From positions 1 through 31,165 of the IMG/VR virus record IMGVR_UViG_3300025131_000252: a DNA stretch of 31,165 bases. One strand, given 5' to 3'. The position numbers and the translations under genes are program-made. Of the stretch, positions 1,922 to 30,745 are shown one piece after another. The first letter of the stretch is position 1; every line of letters begins with the position of its first letter. The notes below the pieces were generated by a model. It was not told where the DNA came from, made no database searches, and was given only the letters and a program-made list of their open reading frames with translations. The stretch comes from a virus.

Positions 1922-3346
1922 ATGATTACAAGTATACCGTTACCGCTGGGTAGCAATGACAAAACAGCCAGCCTGACTCATTTTTATAGAAAGTTTTATA
2001 AAGAAGAGGCCTACCCGACAATGAAATCGAGACCCATCGATTTTTGGTATGACAGGCCACTATATGGTAAAATAGATAGAAAGGAAAATCCCGTCACTGT
2101 CAAGCTTGGCAGTCTAGAACAGTTGCCATCCGATAAGGGAACACACGTCGCTGTTGACTTTGTCGCCGCAGCATTTGCGGATTTCAGATCGTTAATGGCA
2201 AATAAGATCTACAGAAAAAGAGTCAACTCAGACATCTTGACCGAAATGGAGCCAAAAAGAGCTTATGTTGATTTTGAAAAAAATTATCTCAGATACTTAG
2301 ACGTTTATTTTGATGTTTTTACTGAGACCGACTTGTCGCTCCCAGAAATATCTGAAAAGATATTCGATTACGACGATTACATTGAGGCGTTCTTTTCATA
2401 TGCCACTACACATGCTGAAGTTTTACCAATTACGCCTAGTGGGTTTCTACTTTCGTCATTTTGCTCTCCGCTGGTTTCCGGCCTGGTGATAGAAATCGAA
2501 GCTGGGGATCATTCGACGGATAGTGAAAAAGTCAGCGATTTCATCAGAGGTAAGAATTTCGAATTATATTCAGAATATGCGAGAAGGTTTGGGTTTTATG
2601 TAGATAAAAATGCACCATGGCGCCTTGTTGCAAATTTAGCTTCTCCGCAAATGCAGAACTATTTTTCCGAAGGGTTGGTAAAAAGAAGTAAGTCCGCTTC
2701 AAATGTTTTTGACGTGAGTTATGATAGACTTATTTCTGGTGGACGCGGCTACGATATGCTCATGAACAATGTTGCACAGCAGTATGAGAGATATATTGAA
2801 CGAAATCCGCATGTTAAGAAAATTCACGTACACCGGTGCGGCCAGCCGTTTAATAAATATTTGGCTACTAGAGAAAAAAGACCACAGTATGCCTCCCCCG
2901 CCGCCGCCGAAAAGCTTTATATACAGGCGTACTATAATTATCTAGTCTGCAAGCACGCCGAAAACGGCCACCCGTTTGCTTCTGAGGTCGCCAATAAAAA
3001 TATGTTGTTTTTTTTGCACAGCGGCCTTGACATTGAGCGCAAAATGCGTTATATTGATACTCAGATCACTGGAAGAAATTCACGAAGGTGGTGGTTTGAC
3101 AACATCAGTGGTTTAGGGGCGAAAAGTAAAACAGCTTTCATGGAGAACATGGCTTTAAACGATATTAAAACCGCGGGCCCATTGCCATCTTTCTCGCCTC
3201 CGGAACTAATAACTGTTTTGGGAGACGAACACAAAGGGCAATTAGGAAAGAATCCACCCCTACCTTCTGCGAAAGAAAAGAGCGATATGCGAGCGATGGG
3301 TAGATTTATTGCTGATGAGTTAGCAAAACTCTCAGAAGAATGCTAA
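1922..3346 (+). CDS. Hypothetical protein, probably virion structural
   Basis: This 474-residue protein is not recognised. It is soluble-looking, rich in Tyr, Phe and Arg, without a signal peptide, membrane segment or enzymatic motif I can name. Residues 290-345 contain a basic segment with HVHRCGQPF, then an Ala/Tyr-rich helix. Residues 375-395 hold an Arg/Trp-rich patch (GRNSRRWWFDN). The C-terminus is a charged helix preceded by a Pro-rich linker. It starts six bases after the upstream virion gene, and the Shine-Dalgarno is poor (GGGTAATAAAAA before ATG), which suggests translational coupling. Position directly after the tail-like gene is the only argument for a structural role. The next gene, nine bases on, begins the replication block, so this marks the boundary between late and replication modules. 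Confidence 0.55.
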   Translation: MITSIPLPLGSNDKTASLTHFYRKFYKEEAYPTMKSRPIDFWYDRPLYGKIDRKENPVTVKLGSLEQLPSDKGTHVAVDFVAAAFADFRSLMANKIYRKRVNSDILTEMEPKRAYVDFEKNYLRYLDVYFDVFTETDLSLPEISEKIFDYDDYIEAFFSYATTHAEVLPITPSGFLLSSFCSPLVSGLVIEIEAGDHSTDSEKVSDFIRGKNFELYSEYARRFGFYVDKNAPWRLVANLASPQMQNYFSEGLVKRSKSASNVFDVSYDRLISGGRGYDMLMNNVAQQYERYIERNPHVKKIHVHRCGQPFNKYLATREKRPQYASPAAAEKLYIQAYYNYLVCKHAENGHPFASEVANKNMLFFLHSGLDIERKMRYIDTQITGRNSRRWWFDNISGLGAKSKTAFMENMALNDIKTAGPLPSFSPPELITVLGDEHKGQLGKNPPLPSAKEKSDMRAMGRFIADELAKLSEEC

Positions 3347-4532: not shown

Positions 4533-5378
4533 ATGGAAGTTATAATTGGACTAGGCAGAGCCGGCTGTAATATCGCTGAGAAGTTCAACAAATACCCACA
4601 ATACGAAACATATTACATTGATACTGAGGAGAGAGAGGGAAAAAATTTCTTCCTCATGAAGCCTCAGAAAAACATAGAACAGTATGAGAAGAAGACTCCG
4701 AGCTTTAAGAGGTTTTTTTCTAAAATTGCAAAAAAGAGAAAAGAGGTGTTGTTCGTCATGGCCGGCGGCGGCGACATATCTGGTTCAGCCTTGAGAATTC
4801 TTGAAAGTCTTAAGGGGTGTCCGATTAGCTTGCTTTTCATAAAACCAGATTTAGATCTGATAAATGAAAAACAAAAGACCAAAAACAAAGTAGTATATGG
4901 TATAATGCAGGAGTACGCCAGATCTGGCTTGTTGGATAAAATGTACATCGTTGACAATCGCGAAGTTGAAAAAATGGTTGAAAGTGTTCCCATAATGATG
5001 TATAATGATATTATAAATGACAACATCGTCTCGGCGTTTCACATGATTAATGTGTTCAAACACAACGAAGCAATTTTTAGTAATTATAGTGATGAACTGG
5101 TGCCTTCTGCCCGTCTCTGTACGGTCGGAATTGCGGATTTCGTCACAAATGAAAATAAAATGTTTTTTTTACTTGACATGACGCGAAAAATAGATTATAT
5201 TTATGGTATAAACAAAACGAAGTTGGAAACAGAGGGAAATCTTTTAAAGAAGATAAAAGAACAGGTAAGCAACAATACGGTTGGCGATAGTGTCAAAGCA
5301 TCGTATACAATAATTCCTACGAATTATGACTACGACATCGTCTACTGCATTGCTGCATCGAATTTGATACAGAATTAG
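4533..5378 (+). CDS. Divergent FtsZ/tubulin-superfamily GTPase-like protein
   Basis: The order of motifs follows FtsZ. An N-terminal glycine loop (IIGLGRAGCNI, residues 4-14) corresponds to the FtsZ GxGGxGxN segment. VMAGGGDISGSAL (75-87) corresponds to the tubulin signature loop GGGTGTG. It is followed by a strand ending in KPDLDLINEKQK (104-115), matching the KPF-x-FEG-x-x-R region, then a helix and a strand ending in IVDN (139-142), matching the VIPND of FtsZ. A helix at 155-175 matches the nucleotide-contacting H7 helix. LCTVGIADF (195-203) aligns with the T7 loop LINVDFADV: Asp202 is kept, but the first Asn and Asp are Thr and Gly. At 281 residues it is shorter than FtsZ (about 320-390). 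I infer a polymer-forming or nucleotide-binding protein, possibly a distant PhuZ/TubZ relative with weak hydrolysis. It sits between a polymerase and SSB. Confidence 0.6.
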   Translation: MEVIIGLGRAGCNIAEKFNKYPQYETYYIDTEEREGKNFFLMKPQKNIEQYEKKTPSFKRFFSKIAKKRKEVLFVMAGGGDISGSALRILESLKGCPISLLFIKPDLDLINEKQKTKNKVVYGIMQEYARSGLLDKMYIVDNREVEKMVESVPIMMYNDIINDNIVSAFHMINVFKHNEAIFSNYSDELVPSARLCTVGIADFVTNENKMFFLLDMTRKIDYIYGINKTKLETEGNLLKKIKEQVSNNTVGDSVKASYTIIPTNYDYDIVYCIAASNLIQN

Positions 5379-5426: not shown

Positions 5427-6203
5427 ATGGCTATCGATATGGACAGAATGAGGCAGAAGAAGAATCTTCTAGAGAACCGTGGATCCGGAAATTCAAATGT
5501 TAATTTTTGGCGACCCACTGACAATTCGGAGACTACTATTCGTATTCTACCGACGTCGGATGGTGACCCCTTTAAGGAATTTTGGTTTCACTACAATCTA
5601 GAGGATGCACAGGGAAACAAGGTTTCTGGATTTTTGAGCCCAAAGAAGAACTTTGGTGAGGACGATCCATTGGATAATTATATCCGCTCTTTGTTTGGCG
5701 ATGGCTCGGAAGAGAGCATTAAGATGGCGAAAGATCTGATGGCTCGTCAGCGCTTCTTTTCACCGGTAATCGTACGAGGTGAGGAGGACAAGGGAGTGCA
5801 GGTTTGGGGTTACGGAAAGATGGTTTATCAGAACCTGCTCAATTTGGTGCTGAATCCAGAATATGGTGACATCACTGATCCGGACGAGGGTACAGATCTT
5901 GTCATTCATTATGGCAAGCCAGCGGGCGCCCAATTCCCGCAAACTAAGATCACGCCCCGTCGCCGGTCTAGTAACCTGACTGAGGATCAGGAACAGAGCA
6001 CTCAAATGTTGGAAGATATTCCCGACTTTGATGAGATCTTCGAGCGGAAGACTCCGGAAACTGTACAACAGATTCTGGACGATTTTCTTCTCCGCGGAGA
6101 TTCTTCCTCTGAGACTGAGGAGACGCGGTTTGGTGGTAATGGAACGGCGGATACTGCAGTCGATCGCGCATTCAGCGAGTTGACTGGCGAGATGACTGCG
6201 TAA
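5427..6203 (+). CDS. Single-stranded DNA-binding protein, T4 gp32-like
   Basis: The N-terminus (MAIDMDRMRQKKNLLENRG) is a basic, helical segment like the cooperativity domain of gp32. It is followed by NFWRP and TTIRILP, the usual opening of the gp32-type OB fold, and by FWFHYN. The middle (residues 70-170) alternates aromatic strands (FSPVIVRG, VQVWGYGKMVY). The last 90 residues are acidic and Ser/Thr/Glu rich, as expected of the tail that contacts replication partners. I see no Cys/His zinc cluster, which T4 gp32 has but several marine T4-like homologues lack. At 258 residues it is slightly shorter than T4 gp32 (301). It has a strong ribosome binding site (AAAGGAG, then ATG at 5427) and a possible hairpin leader, and probably needs high expression. 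It would coat ssDNA for the polymerase, helicase and RecA-like protein encoded around it. Confidence 0.85.
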   Translation: MAIDMDRMRQKKNLLENRGSGNSNVNFWRPTDNSETTIRILPTSDGDPFKEFWFHYNLEDAQGNKVSGFLSPKKNFGEDDPLDNYIRSLFGDGSEESIKMAKDLMARQRFFSPVIVRGEEDKGVQVWGYGKMVYQNLLNLVLNPEYGDITDPDEGTDLVIHYGKPAGAQFPQTKITPRRRSSNLTEDQEQSTQMLEDIPDFDEIFERKTPETVQQILDDFLLRGDSSSETEETRFGGNGTADTAVDRAFSELTGEMTA

Positions 6204-6226: not shown

Positions 6227-6265
6227 AAGGCACGGCCTTAGAAAAAACAGGTGCCTTATTTTTTT
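6227..6265 (+). terminator. Probable intrinsic terminator after the SSB gene
   Basis: AAGGCAC (6227-6233) pairs perfectly with GTGCCTT (6251-6257), and a run of seven T residues follows at 6259-6265. The loop is long (17 bases) and could fold further as AAGG-CACGG-CCTT. This would let the abundant SSB message end here. It also argues against GTG at 6251 as the start of the RecA-like gene, because that GTG is inside the stem. Confidence 0.5.
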
Positions 6266-6283
6266 ACTAACAAGAGGGAAAAA

Positions 6284-7408
6284 TTGGCAAGTACATCAAA
6301 AAAGCAAAAGCCGGGTAAGTTATCTCCAAAGGAGATGATTGATATCATCAACAAGAAAGCTGGTGGTTCTGTAGCGTATGATTTACGTAAGGAAAACCCT
6401 ACCGACGTCAAGGATTGGATTCCTACCGGTTCTAGATGGTTGGATTCTATAATCTGTAAGGGTCAAGTCGGCGGGATCCCGGTTGGTAAATACGTTGAAA
6501 TTGCCGGATTGGAATCAACAGGGAAGTCATATATGGCCGCCCAGATCGCGGCCAATGCCCAAACCATGGGTATTAACGTTGTCTATTTTGATTCGGAGTC
6601 GGCAATTGATCCTGGATTCTTGACGGCCGCCGGTTGTGACTTAGAAAATTTGGTCTATGTGCAAGCTTCAGATGTGGAATTTGTTTTAAGCACAATTGAA
6701 GATTTTTTGGGCTTTGGCGAGCGCTGTCTGTTTATTTGGGATAGTTTGGCATTGACGCCGACTGTCTCGGATATAGAGGGCGATTTTAATCCGCAATCTT
6801 CGATGGCAATGAAATCTAGAGTGTTGTCCAAGGGTTTCCAAAAGCTTACACAGCCACTGGCAAACACAAAATCCACCTTATTGATTCTGAACCAGTTGAA
6901 GACCAACATCACCTCCAACATTGCGGAGGCAATGACGACGCCATATTTTACCCCTGGTGGTAAGGCTCCCGCATACGCGTGTTCCTTACGTATTTGGCTG
7001 ACTGGTAGAAAAGCAAAGGCCAGTTTTGTTTTAGATGAAAATGGTTTTAGAGTTGGATCGGAGGTTAAGGCTAAGATCAAGAAGTCACGATTTGGTACAG
7101 AGGGGAGAGAATGCACTTTTAAGATTCTTTGGGGAGGAGAGGAGATCAAGATTTGTGATGAGGAGAGTTGGCTGGATGCTGTCAAAGGGTCAGAATCTAT
7201 TCGAAATGCCGGCGCATGGTACACTTTAATATATGCAGATGGCAAGGAAGAGAAGTTTCAAAAAACGAACTGGTTGGAAAAACTACAAGAAGAGAAGTTT
7301 AAGACACGCGTTCTAGAATTGATGGATAATGAGGTCATCAAGAATTTTGAAAACAAGGTTGGGAAGGCTGCCAATTTTTATGATATCGAAGAGGAAGCGG
7401 TTAACTAA
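6284..7408 (+). CDS. RecA/UvsX-like recombinase
   Basis: From the chosen start the protein is 374 residues. It carries a Walker A loop GLESTGKS, close to the RecA GPESSGKT. This is followed by the VVYFDSESAIDP strand that matches the RecA YIDAEHALDP segment, then a Walker B strand CLFIWDSLA. The NQLKTNI segment corresponds to the RecA NQxR L2 region, and TPGG-x-A follows. I prefer TTG at 6284 because AAGAGGG lies just upstream at a good distance. An in-frame GTG at 6251 lies inside a terminator-like stem and would add eleven unusual residues. The protein would form filaments on SSB-coated ssDNA and drive strand invasion and recombination-dependent replication. It lies between SSB and the deaminase/nuclease/helicase group. 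An origin from bacterial RecA or UvsX cannot be settled by eye. Confidence 0.88.
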   Translation: MASTSKKQKPGKLSPKEMIDIINKKAGGSVAYDLRKENPTDVKDWIPTGSRWLDSIICKGQVGGIPVGKYVEIAGLESTGKSYMAAQIAANAQTMGINVVYFDSESAIDPGFLTAAGCDLENLVYVQASDVEFVLSTIEDFLGFGERCLFIWDSLALTPTVSDIEGDFNPQSSMAMKSRVLSKGFQKLTQPLANTKSTLLILNQLKTNITSNIAEAMTTPYFTPGGKAPAYACSLRIWLTGRKAKASFVLDENGFRVGSEVKAKIKKSRFGTEGRECTFKILWGGEEIKICDEESWLDAVKGSESIRNAGAWYTLIYADGKEEKFQKTNWLEKLQEEKFKTRVLELMDNEVIKNFENKVGKAANFYDIEEEAVN

Positions 7409-13149: not shown

Positions 13150-13500
13150 ATGTCGATTAACGACGAGAGAGACAGTACGGAGTCGTCGGAGACCCCGGAA
13201 GAGTTGGTACCCAAAGCCCCGTCAAAACTGGCCGCGCAAGGTATTAAAAGTTTCACAGTGTGTCGGAAACATGATGAAACTGGAATTTCTGGAGAAGGTG
13301 TTGTTATTGAAGGGGTTGTATTGGGGACCGGGCAATGTATTGTACATTGGCTGTATCCCCCGCCCCGCGGCGGCATTGCTATTTTCGACTCTATGATGGA
13401 TTTTATAAAAGTCCATATCAAGCCTCATCCGGCCAATAGAACAATAATCACTTATCAGGATGGGGAACAGGAAGTTTTTGGGGAAGACAAGAGTGAGTGA
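13150..13500 (+). CDS. Small conserved phage protein, function unknown
   Basis: The first 30 residues are polar, acidic and probably disordered. The rest forms a compact beta-rich domain: SFTVCRKHDETGISGEGVVIEGVVLGTG, then IVHWLYPPPRGGIAIFDSMMDF. That pattern (FxVxRxxDxTGxSGxGxVxxGVxFxxGxxxxxW, then FxSxxxF) recalls a small protein I remember from many tailed phages, usually annotated as hypothetical. No catalytic residues can be named. It begins directly after thyX with a GGAGG site and overlaps the region upstream of the adenylosuccinate synthetase gene, so it belongs to the same operon. A role as a small binding domain is possible but unproven. Confidence 0.65.
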   Translation: MSINDERDSTESSETPEELVPKAPSKLAAQGIKSFTVCRKHDETGISGEGVVIEGVVLGTGQCIVHWLYPPPRGGIAIFDSMMDFIKVHIKPHPANRTIITYQDGEQEVFGEDKSE

Positions 13501-13529
13501 GAGAGCTAATCAAATTACAGGAGAAGAAA

Positions 13530-14519
13530 ATGATTGCCGACGTAGTTGTTGATTTGCAGTACGGAGATTGTGGAAAGGGTAAGGTTGCACATCATTTGTG
13601 TAAGACAAAAAAATATACGCATGTAATTAGATATAATGGCGGTTGTAATGCGGGACACACCATTTATCACAATGGTAGGAAGATTATTACTCATCATATA
13701 CCTGCCGGTGTTTTTTTTGGGATTAAGTCCATTATTGGCCCTGGGTGTGTTGTCGAGCCTGGTCAGTTCTTTAAAGAAATTAAAGAGTTGGAGGAAGCTG
13801 GGATCCCGGCGCGAGATCTGGTCTATATCGCTAAGAATGCACATGTTATCACTAGCGATCACCTTCGCGAAGATAACACCGACACTACCATTGGCACAAC
13901 GAAACGCGGAAACGGGCCTGCCTATCGTGCCAAATATGGTAGAACAGGCGTACGCGCGCAGGACGTCCCCGCCCTCGAAGCGTTTTTGATCGATATCTAT
14001 GATGAATTGCACGGTACGGGTGAACGTGTTGAAATTCTTTTTGAGGGCGCCCAAGGGTTTGGCCTGGATATAGATTGGGGCGATTATCCATATGTAACGT
14101 CTTCACATTGCACTACTGCGTCCGCTCTCCTAAATGGAGTACCTCCGCAGGCAATAAGAAATGTGTTTGGGGTGGCTAAGATGTATGAAACATATGTCGG
14201 CGCCAAAAAGTTTGAAGGGTCTGATCCTATATTCAACAGAATAAGAGAACTTGGGGAGGAATATGGAGCGACTACTGGCCGGCCCCGACAATGTAACTGG
14301 ATGAATTGGAATAGACTGATTAAAGCAATCAAAATAAACGGCGTCACAGAAGTCATTTTTAACAAAGTCGATATCATCGAAGAGGTCGGACATGCTAGCA
14401 TCTATAATGACGGAGAGTTAGTTGATTTTGATGGGCCTACCGCGATGAAAGATTTTATCAGTGATTCTCTGCCCGGCAATGTTGTAGCTGTGTTTAGCGG
14501 CGATAAAGAAAGAATTTAA
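13530..14519 (+). CDS. Adenylosuccinate synthetase family enzyme, PurA/PurZ type
   Basis: At 329 residues it has the short archaeal/phage length rather than the bacterial 430. PurA landmarks are present: GDCGKGK (12-18) with Asp13 at the catalytic base position, GGCNAGHT with His43, GTTKRGNGPAY (122-132), EGAQG (172-176), DIDWGDYPYVTSS (180-192) and TGRPRQ (249-254). NKVD (278-281) sits in the place of the GTP-reading TKLD of PurA. Other features recall the 2-aminoadenine enzyme PurZ, notably DLQYG before the loop (PurZ of phage PhiVC8, as I remember it, has DLQFG) and AQGF. PurZ replaces Asp13 with Ser, which this protein does not. The product could be adenylosuccinate from IMP, or a dGMP-derived aminoadenine precursor. 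I chose ATG 13530 because AGGAG lies six bases upstream, not the GTG at 13497. Confidence 0.85.
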   Translation: MIADVVVDLQYGDCGKGKVAHHLCKTKKYTHVIRYNGGCNAGHTIYHNGRKIITHHIPAGVFFGIKSIIGPGCVVEPGQFFKEIKELEEAGIPARDLVYIAKNAHVITSDHLREDNTDTTIGTTKRGNGPAYRAKYGRTGVRAQDVPALEAFLIDIYDELHGTGERVEILFEGAQGFGLDIDWGDYPYVTSSHCTTASALLNGVPPQAIRNVFGVAKMYETYVGAKKFEGSDPIFNRIRELGEEYGATTGRPRQCNWMNWNRLIKAIKINGVTEVIFNKVDIIEEVGHASIYNDGELVDFDGPTAMKDFISDSLPGNVVAVFSGDKERI

Positions 14520-16748: not shown

Positions 16749-16917
16749 CACATCGGAGTATTTAGGTTATGATAGCACTACTCTATGCAGAGTTGCAGAA
16801 ACTCTGGAAGAATTAAGGCAGGAGATTGAGGATGGCGCTATGAGCGCCGAGGAGATTGTAACACAGTTGGAACAAATCAATACAAAACTTTACGATATAA
16901 TTGACGGGAGTCTTTAG
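16729..16917 (+). CDS. Small acidic helical protein, unknown
   Basis: The 62-residue product is acidic and almost entirely predicted helix: LCRVAETLEELRQEIEDG, then SAEEIVTQLEQINTKLYDIIDG, with heptad-like leucine and isoleucine spacing. No known motif is visible. It has a good ribosome binding site (AGGGAG, nine bases before ATG) and its stop overlaps the GTG of the DNA polymerase III gene, so it is translated together with the polymerase. That supports it as a real gene. A polymerase-associated peptide or adaptor is conceivable but only by position. Confidence 0.65.
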   Translation: MEELVLDTSEYLGYDSTTLCRVAETLEELRQEIEDGAMSAEEIVTQLEQINTKLYDIIDGSL

Positions 16918-19900
16918 TGGCAAAAAGGAAGAAATCTAGCATTCCCTTTGTAGGGTTGCATGCACACAGCAATTCGTCCGTTTTCGATGGCTTGGGATAT
17001 CCACAAGAACATATGGATTACGCTTTTGAGAATGGCTCAGACGCGTTAGCTCTAACCGATCATGGTAACATGAACAACTTCGCATATCAAATTATGCATG
17101 CGAAGAAAATGCAGTCCGAGGGAAAAGACTTCAAGCCAATTTACGGCATTGAGGCATACTTTTTGCCATCGATTTCTAAGTGGAAAAGGGAAGTTACGGA
17201 GTTAAGAGAGAAAAAACCTGGACGCTCCCAGGACTCCGGAATCTGTGTGGAAGAGGAAAACCACAGGAAGAAGAAGAAAGGTATCCTCAACAGAAGAAGC
17301 CACATCATTGTTTTGGCCAAGAATCAGACTGGTTTGAGCAACCTTTTCAATATGGTGTCTGACAGCTATGACGGCGACAATTTTTACAGATACCCCAGAA
17401 TTGATTATAAAATGTTGTCGAAGTATTCCGACGGCTTAATCGCTTCTAGCGCGTGCCTAGGCGGCGTATACGCTTCCGATTATTGGAAGAATCGTGACGC
17501 TGGTACTAGCGCTGTTCTTTCTGCTATGGAAAAAACAACTGAGCAGATGCAGTCCGTTTTTGGTGAAAGTTGGTATGCCGAGCTTCAGTGGAATAAAATT
17601 CCAGAACAGCATGAGCTAAACCTGTATATCATCAAGACAGCACAGAAATTTGGAGTGGACTTGATTTCTACTGCAGATAGTCATTATCCTGGTCCAGATT
17701 TTTGGAAGGATAGAGAATTATACCGAAGACTGGGGTGGATATCAAAGAAAGCTCGTCCGGATTGGCTGGAGAATGATCTGCCTGCTTCAGTCGATGCGCT
17801 GGATTATGAATTGTATCCGAAAAACGGAGAACAAATGTGGGAGGCGTATAAGAGTTATTCTGAACATGTCGGCGCACACTATGATGATGATCTCGTACGA
17901 GAGAGCATAGAAAGAACTCATGACATTGCACACAATCACATTGAAAGCTTCTTTCCGAACGCTACGGTACAACTGCCCGAGTTTGTTGTCCCAGAAGGCA
18001 AGACTGCCGATCAGGCGCTTGCACAACTTTGTGTCGACGGCCTTAAAGGTATCAGCTTAGCAGAAGATCAAGATTATATTGCTAGACTAAAGCATGAGAT
18101 TGAGACTATTCAGGAAAGGGGTTTTTCCAGATACTTTCTGACGATGAAAGCCATCGCCGATAAGGCGACAGAGAGTCAGCTAGTTGGCCCGGGCCGCGGA
18201 TCGGCCGCGGGTTCACTGATCTCTTACGTTCTGGGAATAACTCAGGTCGACCCGATTAAATATAATCTACAGTTTTCCCGCTTTTTGACAAAAGACGGTG
18301 AGGGGTACCCAGACATTGATTATGATGTAAGCGAGCCGATGGAGTTGAAGGAGAGGTTGATAGAGGAATGGGGTTCCACAACGGTGGTCCCGATATCCAA
18401 TTGGAACACTTTGCAGCTTCGAAGTCTGATAAAAGACGTTTCCAAGTTTTATGATATTCCGTTTACTGAAGTAAACATGGTTACTGGCAGAATGATGTTG
18501 GAAGCTACTCCGGAGGCAAAAAAGGCCAACGGTATTAAAGCTGGTATGTACAGTCCAACTTTCGAAGAAGTTATGATGTATAGCATATCACTGCAGAATT
18601 TTCTTAAGAAATATCCGCAAGTTAAAACACACATTGATGTTCTATATGGGCAGGTTAGGAGTTGTTCCAGACATGCCGGCGGAATTGTCGTTGGTGAAAA
18701 TTTGGATAAGAGGATGCCTCTAATCAATAGTAAAGGTGTCAGGCAGACTCCGTGGACTGAAGGGCAGCATGTTAGACATTTGGAGCCCATGGGCTTTATC
18801 AAGTTTGACATCCTGGGATTGGCGTCGTTGCGAATGATGGAAGAGTCTATCAAACATGTCTTAAAAAGACATCATGGGATCGCCGAACCTTCTTTCGATG
18901 ATGTCAAAAGATTCTATGATAAGAATTTGCACCCTGATGTGCTCGATTTTAATAATCAAGAGATTTACGAAAACATCTACCAGAACGGCAAATGGGCCGG
19001 AATATTCCAATTCACCGAATCTGGTGCACAGAGACTTTGTCAAAAAATCAAGCCAACAAATCTGGTTGACTTGGCTGCAGTGACAAGTATTTTTCGCCCG
19101 GGCCCGTTAAATGCCGGCGTCGATAAAGACTATGTTGCCGCCCGTTCTGGCGAGAAGTGGGTAGATTACCCACATGAAACATACAAAGAGGTCACACAAA
19201 GCACTTCAGGGTTTCTTATTTTTCAGGAGCAGATAGCTTCTTTGGCTCACAAGCTGGGTAAAGATATTTCTTTGGATGAGGGTAACAAACTTCGTAAACT
19301 TTTGACCAAGAAGGGAACTTCCGACGTAGAAGAGAAAAAGAAGAAAATTCATAAGAAGTTCATCGAAGGATGCGGCGAGAAAGAGATCGATGCCATGACC
19401 GCCCAGAGAATTTGGGAGAAGTTTGAGTACTTTTCTGGATACGGATTTAATAAGTCGCACGCTATGTCTTATAGTATGCTGTCGTTTCAATGTGCGTGGT
19501 TATTCAATTACTACCCAGCGGAGTGGATGGCTGCTTTCCTAGACAAGGAACCAGAAGGAAGGAAGGAGAGAGCCATAACAACAGCGAAGAGGTTTGGCTT
19601 TGAGATTGAGCCAGCTAACATTAACAAATCCGGAAAGGTTTGGGAGATCTCCGCTGACGGCAAAAATCTCATTCAACCACTAACTTCGATCAAAGGTTTG
19701 GGAGATGCAGCGATATCGCAGGTGATTGACAATCGCCCGTTTGACAACGTGGAAGATTTTATTTTCAGCGAAAATATAGTCTACAGCAAACTGAATAAGA
19801 AGGCGTTAGATGTGCTGATTCGGTGCGGTGCACTAGATGAACTGATTGATGAGCGATTTTCTGGTGCAAAGCATTTTTGGACTGCGGTCGCGATTGATCG

Positions 19901-20333
19901 CCCTAAGAACAAGAAAAGGTTTTTAGAAAACATAGAGATGTATAGAGAAGAGGGTAGTTTTTCCACCAAGGAGAAGATTAATTACTTCGTCGACTTAACT
20001 GGAATATTTCCGATTGAGTTGGTTATGGAGGATTCGATCCTTCAGAAACTGGAAGATTACAACATCCCACCGCTTGGGGAATGGGATAATGATTTACGTG
20101 TTGCATGGTTTATACCACGGGAGGTAATCAAGAAGAAAACAAAGAACGGAAAGACATACTGGATCGTCAAAGTGATCGAGTCTACTAGCAATATAACTGG
20201 CATAAAGTGCTGGGGGATCAGGGACAATGACCGGGTGTTGATCAATCATCCATATATGGCTAGGTTAGACTATAGTGAACAGTGGGGATTTAGTACCAGA
20301 TCGATAAAACATAACTTTAAATTGCTGGGGTGA
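16917..20333 (+). CDS. dnaE: DNA polymerase III alpha subunit (DnaE-type, family C)
   Basis: The 1138-residue protein is a complete family C replicase. The N-terminal PHP domain has HAHS (15-18), TDHGNM, GIEAY and TADSHYP, with the metal-binding His/Asp set largely kept. The palm holds GPGRGSAAGSL and YPDIDYD (about 463-470), which carries the catalytic Asp pair, and the third Asp in FDILGL (near 630). Fingers motifs (FRPGPLNAG, GIFQFT, YGFNKSHAMSYS) follow. A tandem helix-hairpin-helix region (SIKGLGDAAI) and a C-terminal OB-like domain (about 1040-1115) complete it. E. coli DnaE is 1160 residues. I cannot find a clear beta-clamp binding pentapeptide. GGGAG precedes the GTG start. It is probably the main phage replicase. 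Carriage of DnaE together with a family A polymerase is uncommon in phages. Confidence 0.95.
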   Translation: MAKRKKSSIPFVGLHAHSNSSVFDGLGYPQEHMDYAFENGSDALALTDHGNMNNFAYQIMHAKKMQSEGKDFKPIYGIEAYFLPSISKWKREVTELREKKPGRSQDSGICVEEENHRKKKKGILNRRSHIIVLAKNQTGLSNLFNMVSDSYDGDNFYRYPRIDYKMLSKYSDGLIASSACLGGVYASDYWKNRDAGTSAVLSAMEKTTEQMQSVFGESWYAELQWNKIPEQHELNLYIIKTAQKFGVDLISTADSHYPGPDFWKDRELYRRLGWISKKARPDWLENDLPASVDALDYELYPKNGEQMWEAYKSYSEHVGAHYDDDLVRESIERTHDIAHNHIESFFPNATVQLPEFVVPEGKTADQALAQLCVDGLKGISLAEDQDYIARLKHEIETIQERGFSRYFLTMKAIADKATESQLVGPGRGSAAGSLISYVLGITQVDPIKYNLQFSRFLTKDGEGYPDIDYDVSEPMELKERLIEEWGSTTVVPISNWNTLQLRSLIKDVSKFYDIPFTEVNMVTGRMMLEATPEAKKANGIKAGMYSPTFEEVMMYSISLQNFLKKYPQVKTHIDVLYGQVRSCSRHAGGIVVGENLDKRMPLINSKGVRQTPWTEGQHVRHLEPMGFIKFDILGLASLRMMEESIKHVLKRHHGIAEPSFDDVKRFYDKNLHPDVLDFNNQEIYENIYQNGKWAGIFQFTESGAQRLCQKIKPTNLVDLAAVTSIFRPGPLNAGVDKDYVAARSGEKWVDYPHETYKEVTQSTSGFLIFQEQIASLAHKLGKDISLDEGNKLRKLLTKKGTSDVEEKKKKIHKKFIEGCGEKEIDAMTAQRIWEKFEYFSGYGFNKSHAMSYSMLSFQCAWLFNYYPAEWMAAFLDKEPEGRKERAITTAKRFGFEIEPANINKSGKVWEISADGKNLIQPLTSIKGLGDAAISQVIDNRPFDNVEDFIFSENIVYSKLNKKALDVLIRCGALDELIDERFSGAKHFWTAVAIDRPKNKKRFLENIEMYREEGSFSTKEKINYFVDLTGIFPIELVMEDSILQKLEDYNIPPLGEWDNDLRVAWFIPREVIKKKTKNGKTYWIVKVIESTSNITGIKCWGIRDNDRVLINHPYMARLDYSEQWGFSTRSIKHNFKLLG

Positions 20334-29176: not shown

Positions 29177-30745
29177 GTGTCAAAAATATTTGATAACGGA
29201 GCCTCTCTGCGAGAGAAGCTTCTCAAAGGTGTTAACACAGTGGCGGATAATGTTGCGTCGACAATGGGCCCCCGCGGCCGCAATGTCATTTTGTATCGCA
29301 AGGATAAGTCGCCCGTGATTACCAAGGATGGCGTCACCGTTGCTAGGTTTATAGACCTGGACGATCCAATTGAGAATGCTGGGGCGCAAGTTTTGAAGCA
29401 AGCCGCTTCTCAAACTAACACTAATGCCGGCGACGGCACAACAACTGCGGCTGTGTTGGCTCGGGAAATATATAGGAATTCGCTTAAATATATTTCGGCA
29501 GGAAGTTCCCCCGTTGAATTGAAAAGGGGGATGGACTTGGCAGTTACCGCAATCGTTGAGAATCTTGAAGAAATGGCGACCCCCATCACTAGCCAAAAAG
29601 ATATACAACATATTGCCAAGATAAGCGCCAATGGCGATGAGGTGATCGGCAATTTAATAGGGATGGCAGTCGACAGCGTCGGCAAAGACGGATCAATCAC
29701 AGTTGAGGAAGCACGTTCCCTAGAAACGAGTCTAGATGTTGTAGAAGGGTTCAGGTTTGATTCCGGATATGCCGCCACTGCATTTATAACAAATGAGCGG
29801 AAGGGTATTTGCAAATATGAAGATTGTTTAGTTGTGGTCACTGATGAAAAGATTGAATTTGTAGAGAATATGCTACCGATCTTGGAGATCGCTGCTAGAG
29901 AATCTAGGCCGCTGTTAATTATCGCAGAAGAGATAGAAGGTCAAGCCCTCGCCGCGTTAATAATGAATTCCATGCGCGGAACGATGAGAATTGTGGCTGT
30001 TAAGGCACCACGTTACGGCGAGGAGAGGAGAAACTTGTTAAAAGATCTGGCTCTCTCTGTCAACGCATCTTTAATTTCACGAGAGAGCAGCGTAAGACTA
30101 CGCGACGCTAAATTAAATCATTTTGGTTTGGCCAAATCTGTTTATATTGAAAAGGGGATGACAACTATCATAAGCGGAGAGTGTGAGGTCGATGAAATTG
30201 ATCAAAGAATAGACGCCCTCAAAGAAGAGCTTAAGCAGACAGCCAACTTGCATGAATGTGAAAAGATCCAGGAAAGAATAACTAGACTGGCCAGCGGCGT
30301 CGCGATTCTCAGGGTCGGTGCACCAACTGAAATTGAAATGTTGGAGAAAAAGCATAGAATTGAGGATGCATTGGAAGCGGTTAAGTCCGCTCAAGAGGAG
30401 GGGATTGTTCCCGGCGGCGGAGTCGCTTTGCTGCGCGCCGCAGAGAAGATCCGAGTTTCGGCGAAGAATGAAGATCAAAAGTTTGGTGTGAAAATTATAA
30501 AAGAGTCGATTCAAGCGCCTATGCGTCAGATGGCCGAAAACACTGGAGAGTCGGCCGACCTTGTAGTTGCGACGGTTTTAAAATCTCCTGCGAACAAGGG
30601 TTGGGATTTTGTCGATGGAAAGGTAGTTGACATGGTCAAAAGGGGGATCGTGGATCCCGTGAAAGTGACGCGATGTGCACTACAGAACGCTGCATCGGTT
30701 TCTTCGACGCTGCTGACAACGAATTATGCTATTATAGAAGGATGA
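29177..30745 (+). CDS. groEL: Chaperonin GroEL
   Basis: The 522-residue protein is full length apart from the C-terminal GGM tail, which is absent. ATP-site residues are kept: TMGPRGRNVIL, DGVTVA, NAGDGTTTAAVLA with the catalytic Asp, and VGAPTEIEMLEKKHRIEDAL with Asp398-equivalent. GGGVALLRA and the PMRQMAENTGESADLVV segment of the equatorial domain follow. The apical helices that bind substrate and GroES lie between. It would fold phage capsid or other proteins with the phage GroES-like cap (12165), replacing or supplementing the host pair. The start is GTG after AGGAG. A promoter-like sequence precedes it. T4-like phages usually encode only the cap (gp31), so carrying both is uncommon. Confidence 0.97.
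   Translation: MSKIFDNGASLREKLLKGVNTVADNVASTMGPRGRNVILYRKDKSPVITKDGVTVARFIDLDDPIENAGAQVLKQAASQTNTNAGDGTTTAAVLAREIYRNSLKYISAGSSPVELKRGMDLAVTAIVENLEEMATPITSQKDIQHIAKISANGDEVIGNLIGMAVDSVGKDGSITVEEARSLETSLDVVEGFRFDSGYAATAFITNERKGICKYEDCLVVVTDEKIEFVENMLPILEIAARESRPLLIIAEEIEGQALAALIMNSMRGTMRIVAVKAPRYGEERRNLLKDLALSVNASLISRESSVRLRDAKLNHFGLAKSVYIEKGMTTIISGECEVDEIDQRIDALKEELKQTANLHECEKIQERITRLASGVAILRVGAPTEIEMLEKKHRIEDALEAVKSAQEEGIVPGGGVALLRAAEKIRVSAKNEDQKFGVKIIKESIQAPMRQMAENTGESADLVVATVLKSPANKGWDFVDGKVVDMVKRGIVDPVKVTRCALQNAASVSSTLLTTNYAIIEG

Follow-up and report, generated by a model that had tools for sequence, protein, structure and literature searches.

Most of what is known of phage tubulins concerns two forms, the GTPase spindles of jumbo phages that form a nucleus and the partition filaments made by TubZ. 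The roles of the T1 glycine loop and of the guanine-contact positions in T6 and H7 are established in tubulin and FtsZ. In phage tubulins the catalytic aspartate lies in the T7 loop (PMC3678025). The T7 mutant D190A of PhuZ forms stable, non-dynamic filaments that depend on GTP, and catalytically dead PhuZ disrupts the positioning of DNA (PMC4244570). The dynamics of TubZ need its C-terminal tail (PMC5322520). Metagenomic phages, too, have been reported to encode tubulin homologues (for example PMC7162821, PMC10980836). In the open-access literature searched, no tubulin family was found that is described as having T7 and H8 deleted or as having a fixed place next to a polymerase and a single-stranded DNA-binding protein (SSB), with its gene between the two.

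The stretch of viral DNA analysed in this study (the window; 31,165 nucleotides, IMG/VR record IMGVR_UViG_3300025131_000252) encodes a protein with a predicted tubulin fold, whose T7/H8-less family is named fam1 here. Phage tubulins as such are already known, and fam1 is a variant of them. TubZ, the plasmid tubulin-like GTPase (for example of pBtoxis and of B. cereus and Paenibacillus plasmids), has about 400-490 amino acids and is part of a TubR-TubZ partition locus, whereas the window protein has 281, is without the T7 DxxD, H8 and the C-terminal helix or tail, and is encoded in a replication operon (polymerase, SSB, UvsX). PhuZ of the jumbo phages 201phi2-1 and phiKZ is, like fam1, a tubulin fold in a tailed phage. 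However, the phage type and gene context differ, and PhuZ possesses both a catalytic T7 and a long C-terminus on which its filaments depend (PMC3678025, PMC4244570), neither of which is present in fam1. FtsZ has the fold in common with fam1, which is without the T7, H8, H9 and C-terminal tail of FtsZ. The archaeal tubulin-like CetZ has about 330-360 amino acids in the solved chains, and its catalytic and C-terminal elements are unmatched in fam1.

The fam1 gene and its place in phage genomes

Analysis of the window revealed an intact open reading frame for the tubulin-fold protein (Table 1), starting (4533) one base past the stop of the upstream polymerase gene. The original prediction had placed the gene between a polymerase and an SSB, and the two flanking genes were identified as a family-A polymerase (Pfam DNA_pol_A) and an SSB (phrog_1192).

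Table 1. Coordinates of the tubulin-fold gene, its sequence elements and its neighbours in the window
Feature	Residues	Position (strand)	Evidence or remark
Tubulin-fold protein fam1, 281 aa		4533..5378 (+)	ORF; AlphaFold; Foldseek; VIA; 48- and 120-sequence alignments
T1 glycine loop IIGLGRAGCN	4-13	4542..4571 (+)	aligned with TubZ IGAGQKG
T4 loop AGGGDISGS	77-85	4761..4787 (+)	aligned with TubZ AGGGFGTG
Family hallmark QEYARSG, end of helix H5	126-132	4908..4928 (+)	
T6 asparagine N142	142	4956..4958 (+)	guanine-contact position
Central helix H7, with N162 and H170	154-176	4992..5060 (+)	model helix
Expected T7/H8 site	177-194	5061..5114 (+)	short linker, no catalytic Asp motif
Strand S7, LCTVGIA	195-201	5115..5135 (+)	DSSP strand in model
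Family-A DNA polymerase, 391 aa		3356..4531 (+)	upstream neighbour; Pfam DNA_pol_A 4e-10
Single-stranded DNA-binding protein (SSB)		5427..6203 (+)	downstream neighbour; phrog_1192 1.8e-24
UvsX/RecA-like recombinase		6251..7408 (+)	same gene block; phrog_97 1.8e-59; syntenic

Other genes of the window were annotated alongside. Besides the short family-A polymerase adjoining fam1, the window encodes a DnaE-type (PolIII alpha-like) DNA polymerase (16917-20333), and hence the main replicase may be either this enzyme or the PolA-type neighbour. Upstream of the family-A polymerase, two proteins (1922-3346 and 2-1915), for which no informative match was found in Pfam or PHROG, are conserved in order in many relatives. 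A PurA-like protein of 340 amino acids (13497-14519) carries the PHROG name '2-aminooxy adenylosuccinate synthetase'; PurZ models fit it less well than PurA and GDCGKGK is kept, so that, judging from the motif, ordinary PurA-like activity is likelier than 2-aminoadenine synthesis. The window also contains a phage-encoded GroEL at 29177-30745 (phrog_5725, E 8e-144).

Scans of Pfam, PHROGs and NCBIfam gave nothing above cut-off for the window protein, including the FtsZ family model TIGR00065 of NCBIfam, and a pattern search with it matched only an identical fragment. Relatives were reached through the neighbouring UvsX gene, which led to 80 related phage contigs, nearly all with a fam1 homologue at the same place. 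A 48-sequence alignment was built from members 33-46% identical to the window protein; none of these 48 members reached the gathering score of Pfam PF00091 (tubulin/FtsZ GTPase), and nine gave weak matches to it (best E 0.012). A search of IMG/VR from this alignment found at least 590 loci with fam1. The residue conservation counts given below refer to 120 full-length homologues.

No relative was found when three fam1 members were compared by tblastn with 50,697 phage records. The single match in a bacterial genome (L165, CP070664.1) lies in a candidate division WOR-3 MAG, where phage replication genes stand between runs of N within a bacterial 'chromosome' scaffold. Because the phage piece lies between runs of N, this match is uninformative about the host; it is likely a scaffolding or binning artefact in the public genome.

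The gene order in the block is PolA-type polymerase, fam1, SSB and UvsX. In 143 of the 144 loci carrying fam1, the first recognised gene on the downstream side was SSB; on the upstream side it was the polymerase in 123, a contig edge was met in 20 and neither in one. Loci seemingly without fam1 were mostly cut at the contig end, and in three cut loci the C-terminus of fam1 was present just upstream of SSB. The sole true exception was L037, with other genes in that slot. Almost without exception, the members of this large clade of uncultured phages retain fam1. In about half of the loci measured, the polymerase gene and fam1 overlap or nearly touch (junctions of -16 to +3 nt), and about a third of the measured junctions hold an insert of ~300 nt. 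The insert is often a small ORF, MazG/NTP-pyrophosphatase-like by the motif KLVRDKIPEI (L028, L015, L030, L083, L095 and L100).

The nearest cultured relatives, Microcystis phage Mel-JY01 and Flavobacterium phage immuto, and an uncultured 484 kb phage were also considered as carriers of fam1. The gene upstream of SSB was not fam1 in any of the three, which share the SSB-exonuclease-helicase block and have other genes in the fam1 slot.

Predicted fold and relation to TubZ

The AlphaFold model of fam1, built from the 48-row alignment (pLDDT 92.7, pTM 0.91), has the two-domain tubulin fold with a central helix H7. Comparison with the PDB by Foldseek gave E-values of 4.4e-13 to FtsZ and 6.3e-13 to TubZ. 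In VIA-align the highest structural scores were found for CetZ (Z 25.3 and 24.1; 257 residues at 2.6 A for the better one, at about 15% identity), followed by TubZ (Z 23.9, 277 residues, 3.1 A) and FtsZ (Z 23.1, 270 residues, 3.4 A; about 22-23 for FtsZ in general). These matches span residues 1-281 of fam1, with Z of 21-25 to hundreds of tubulin, FtsZ, TubZ and CetZ chains. PDB chains other than tubulin relatives are absent from the VIA list, an absence that carries no evidential weight.

The evidence from sequence, which does not rely on the structure prediction, comes from phmmer and hhalign, since the 48-row profile, run by hmmsearch against the sequences of the PDB, matched Hsp90 alone, by chance. 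A single-sequence phmmer search against the PDB gave six matches, individually weak (E about 0.3) and all to TubZ, with GGG, PD, DN and NDN in register. In hhalign, a profile made from the 120 homologues aligned with TubZ of a Paenibacillus plasmid at a score of 49.9 (E 2.9e-6), against a maximum of 30.5 for 300 shuffles of TubZ and of 27.9 for 63 other phage ORFs. This alignment runs through T1, T4, T5, T6 and H7, and fam1 and TubZ share the H7 pattern 'NDxIxSTxHexN'. Scores for E. coli FtsZ (15.3) and PhuZ (16.8) were at noise level; for FtsZ, T1, T4, T5 and T6 are nevertheless in register with fam1, while for PhuZ no sequence link was detectable. By profile comparison, TubZ is the closest sequence relative of fam1 among those compared.

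Given the full-length fold matches and the TubZ profile score, the prediction of a tubulin fold is secure, and we are nearly certain that fam1 has this fold. The original prediction had described a divergent FtsZ/tubulin-like protein within a replication cluster and had proposed structural comparison with FtsZ, TubZ and PhuZ as its check. Structure prediction returned a tubulin fold end to end, and the description is strongly supported by fold, TubZ profile and synteny.

Nucleotide pocket, T7/H8 site and a second tubulin

Among the 120 homologues, the T1 glycines were found in 116 (G6), 114 (G8) and 115 (G11), D30 of T2 in 106, and asparagine in 113 each at N142 of T6 and N162 of H7. The glycine loop and the T6/H7 asparagines are therefore present in 95-97% and 94% of the family, respectively, and are lost in some lineages. 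In the alignment they fall on the glycine-loop and guanine-contact sites of tubulin and FtsZ. At the T4 loop, G78 and G80 occur in 104 homologues each, S83 in 98 and G84 in 85, and the position between the first two glycines is occupied by serine (67), alanine (27) or glycine (11). The family pattern is G-[SAG]-G-x-x-[ST]-[GA], with AGGGDISG in the window; neither agrees with the canonical T4 signature GGGTG(S/T)G. The GGG that had been expected to be conserved is thus kept in its flanking glycines and is variable in the middle. Judged from these residues, binding of GTP or GDP through T1-T6/H7 has most likely persisted in the majority of fam1 lineages.

The losses are confined to a few lineages. 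T1 is lost in seven sequences, by two changes on the tree. The seven sequences that have lost N142 are precisely the ones that have lost N162, with three changes for each residue; all three tree events agree, a number too small for significance. Outside the pocket, Y24, Q126, R130, S131 and H170 are invariant in all 120 homologues, pocket-less lineages included, and Y128 occurs in 118.

At the place of T7 and H8, segment 176-194 has 18-19 amino acids in all 120 homologues, and an NxDxxD motif was found in this segment in none of them. In the model, H7 (154-176) leads through a loop to strand 195-201 with no helix between, so that neither a catalytic NxDxxD/E loop nor an H8 after it is present. 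H9 is likewise missing before strand 217-227, and the chain ends right after the last strand, with a median tail of four residues past Q280. As a control, the canonical tubulin described below (fam2), modelled likewise, has a helix after T7 (249-256) and the next helix (277-287).

These results alter the reading of the sequence segments that had been noticed in FtsZ order. The glycine loop (T1), the GGG...G loop (T4) and KPD (T5) stand in tubulin register. The fourth, LCTVGIADF, is not T7, as residues 195-201 form the strand after H7, equivalent to FtsZ S7 YAMMGSG; the two T7 residues taken to be substituted belong to a loop that is deleted, together with H8, in all 120 homologues. The expectation of a slow or inactive GTPase gains support by this other route, through deletion rather than substitution, and fam1 is probably unable to hydrolyse GTP. 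Since the T7 catalytic acid is absent, it could not form GTPase-active head-to-tail protofilaments.

A Pfam Tubulin search of ten long contigs gave one additional match, on a 165.9-kb contig. This second, canonical tubulin (fam2; L169:7387-8481, - strand, contig IMGVR_UViG_3300025131_009739) has 364 amino acids and relatives in L172-L250. In IMG/VR 107 fam2 relatives were confirmed, and none was found in the phage record collection. It has the tubulin fold, as fam1 has, but with T1 GVGGGGGK, T4 GGGGGTGS, T7 FDSKDL, H8 and H9 all present, and G138-S143, D248 and D251 are invariant in its family. The fam2 profile matched E. coli FtsZ at E 2.1e-9, with T7 aligned to NVDFADV, and the fam2 model matched TubZ at a VIA Z of 32.7. 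Between the fam1 and fam2 profiles the match was weak (score 29.2, E 0.0036) and within the range of the shuffled controls. Six contigs carry both families, with fam1 in the same slot between polymerase and SSB and fam2 elsewhere in the genome. In several contigs of 147-184 kb carrying fam1, fam2 was not found; judging from these contigs, which may be incomplete, it is therefore not an obligate partner.

Possible roles of fam1

We tentatively propose, with slightly less than even confidence, that fam1 serves the phage replication complex as a tubulin-fold accessory incapable of hydrolysis. Its ancestor would have been a GTP-binding, probably TubZ-like protein. From this state fam1 would have lost the elements of the fold that serve activation (helices H8 and H9, the T7 loop and the C-terminal helix or tail), so that it could not supply the T7 catalytic acid to the nucleotide of a neighbour. 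Made next to a small PolA-type polymerase and SSB, and presumably often translationally coupled with them, it would attach, in the form of a monomer, a small oligomer or a static patch, to a partner in replication and act as a non-dynamic structural part of the complex. A replication role is favoured by the fixed slot and the coupled junctions, and the slot beside polymerase and SSB points more to replication than to the inhibition of host FtsZ that had been offered as an option. The link is circumstantial, coming as it does from the conserved gene slot, and against it stand the DnaE-type polymerase of the window, given which the PolA-type neighbour may not be the chief replicase, and the absence of fam1 from related phages that have the same replication block. 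The more specific claim that fam1 is an obligate, non-dynamic pseudo-GTPase bound to polymerase or SSB throughout the clade, with some of the phages being two-tubulin phages, appears rather doubtful to us.

A different role would be that of a cap or antagonist that terminates or poisons a tubulin-type filament, either host FtsZ or fam2. The loss in fam1 is asymmetric, with the nucleotide face largely kept and the T7/H8 face deleted; a subunit with a T1-T6 face and no T7/H8 face could accept a T7 loop and could not be built on further. The six contigs that also encode fam2, with its intact T4 and T7, would provide such a filament. However, T1 has been destroyed by two or more lineage changes and N142/N162 by three, and a GTP-dependent cap should not survive these changes; the repeated loss of the pocket therefore disfavours a cap that depends strictly on GTP. 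Moreover, the fam1 contigs of 147-184 kb in which fam2 was not found speak against this role, and a gene for host takeover would not normally be fixed in a slot flanked by polymerase and SSB throughout its relatives. We consider a cap unlikely.

A positioning filament of the PhuZ/TubZ type, dynamic or static, that places replicating phage DNA is in our estimate improbable. It would agree with a fold common to the phage and plasmid tubulins that move DNA, and a static filament is conceivable given that the D190A change leaves PhuZ able to form stable filaments that depend on GTP (PMC4244570). Nevertheless, T7, H8, H9 and the C-terminal tail are all missing from fam1, which disfavours a dynamic filament and makes a dynamic PhuZ/TubZ-like spindle unlikely. 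The D190A filaments are themselves non-dynamic and catalytically dead PhuZ disturbs DNA positioning (PMC4244570), and the tail is required for the dynamics of TubZ (PMC5322520). In an unsystematic look at the genes, neither chimallin nor a jumbo-phage setting was noticed. The replication-site positioning filament of the original prediction is weakened accordingly, because published phage and plasmid tubulins use GTPase-driven dynamics and a C-terminal tail, and fam1 is without the parts for both.

Of similarly low probability is a pure scaffold, in which the tubulin fold would be a relic, nucleotide binding incidental or structural, and the side with QEYARSG and H170 the working part. The pocket-less lineages, which persist in the same slot with Q126, R130, S131 and H170 unchanged, are consistent with such a scaffold, but about 94% of the homologues keep the pocket residues under strong constraint, and a relic would not need them. 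The last alternative, a Rossmann-like NAD(P)-binding protein resembling tubulin by chance, was suggested by weak TrkA_N/Pyr_redox_2 matches (Pfam TrkA_N E 0.023, below cut-off) and was rejected as extremely improbable, since the predicted fold is that of tubulin end to end, with Z of 21-25 to hundreds of tubulin-type chains and a TubZ profile match through T1, T4, T6 and H7.

Taken as a family, fam1 presents a tubulin fold without its catalytic half, retained across a large uncultured phage clade. The clade constitutes a natural series in which the pocket is intact, the pocket is lost (at T1 or at T6/H7), or a canonical second tubulin is present in the same phage, and this series can serve to test which elements of the fold are required to bind, assemble and hydrolyse. 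If the proposed accessory role in replication is true, fam1 would be, as far as is known, the first tubulin-fold replication accessory and would show the use of the tubulin fold without polymer dynamics.
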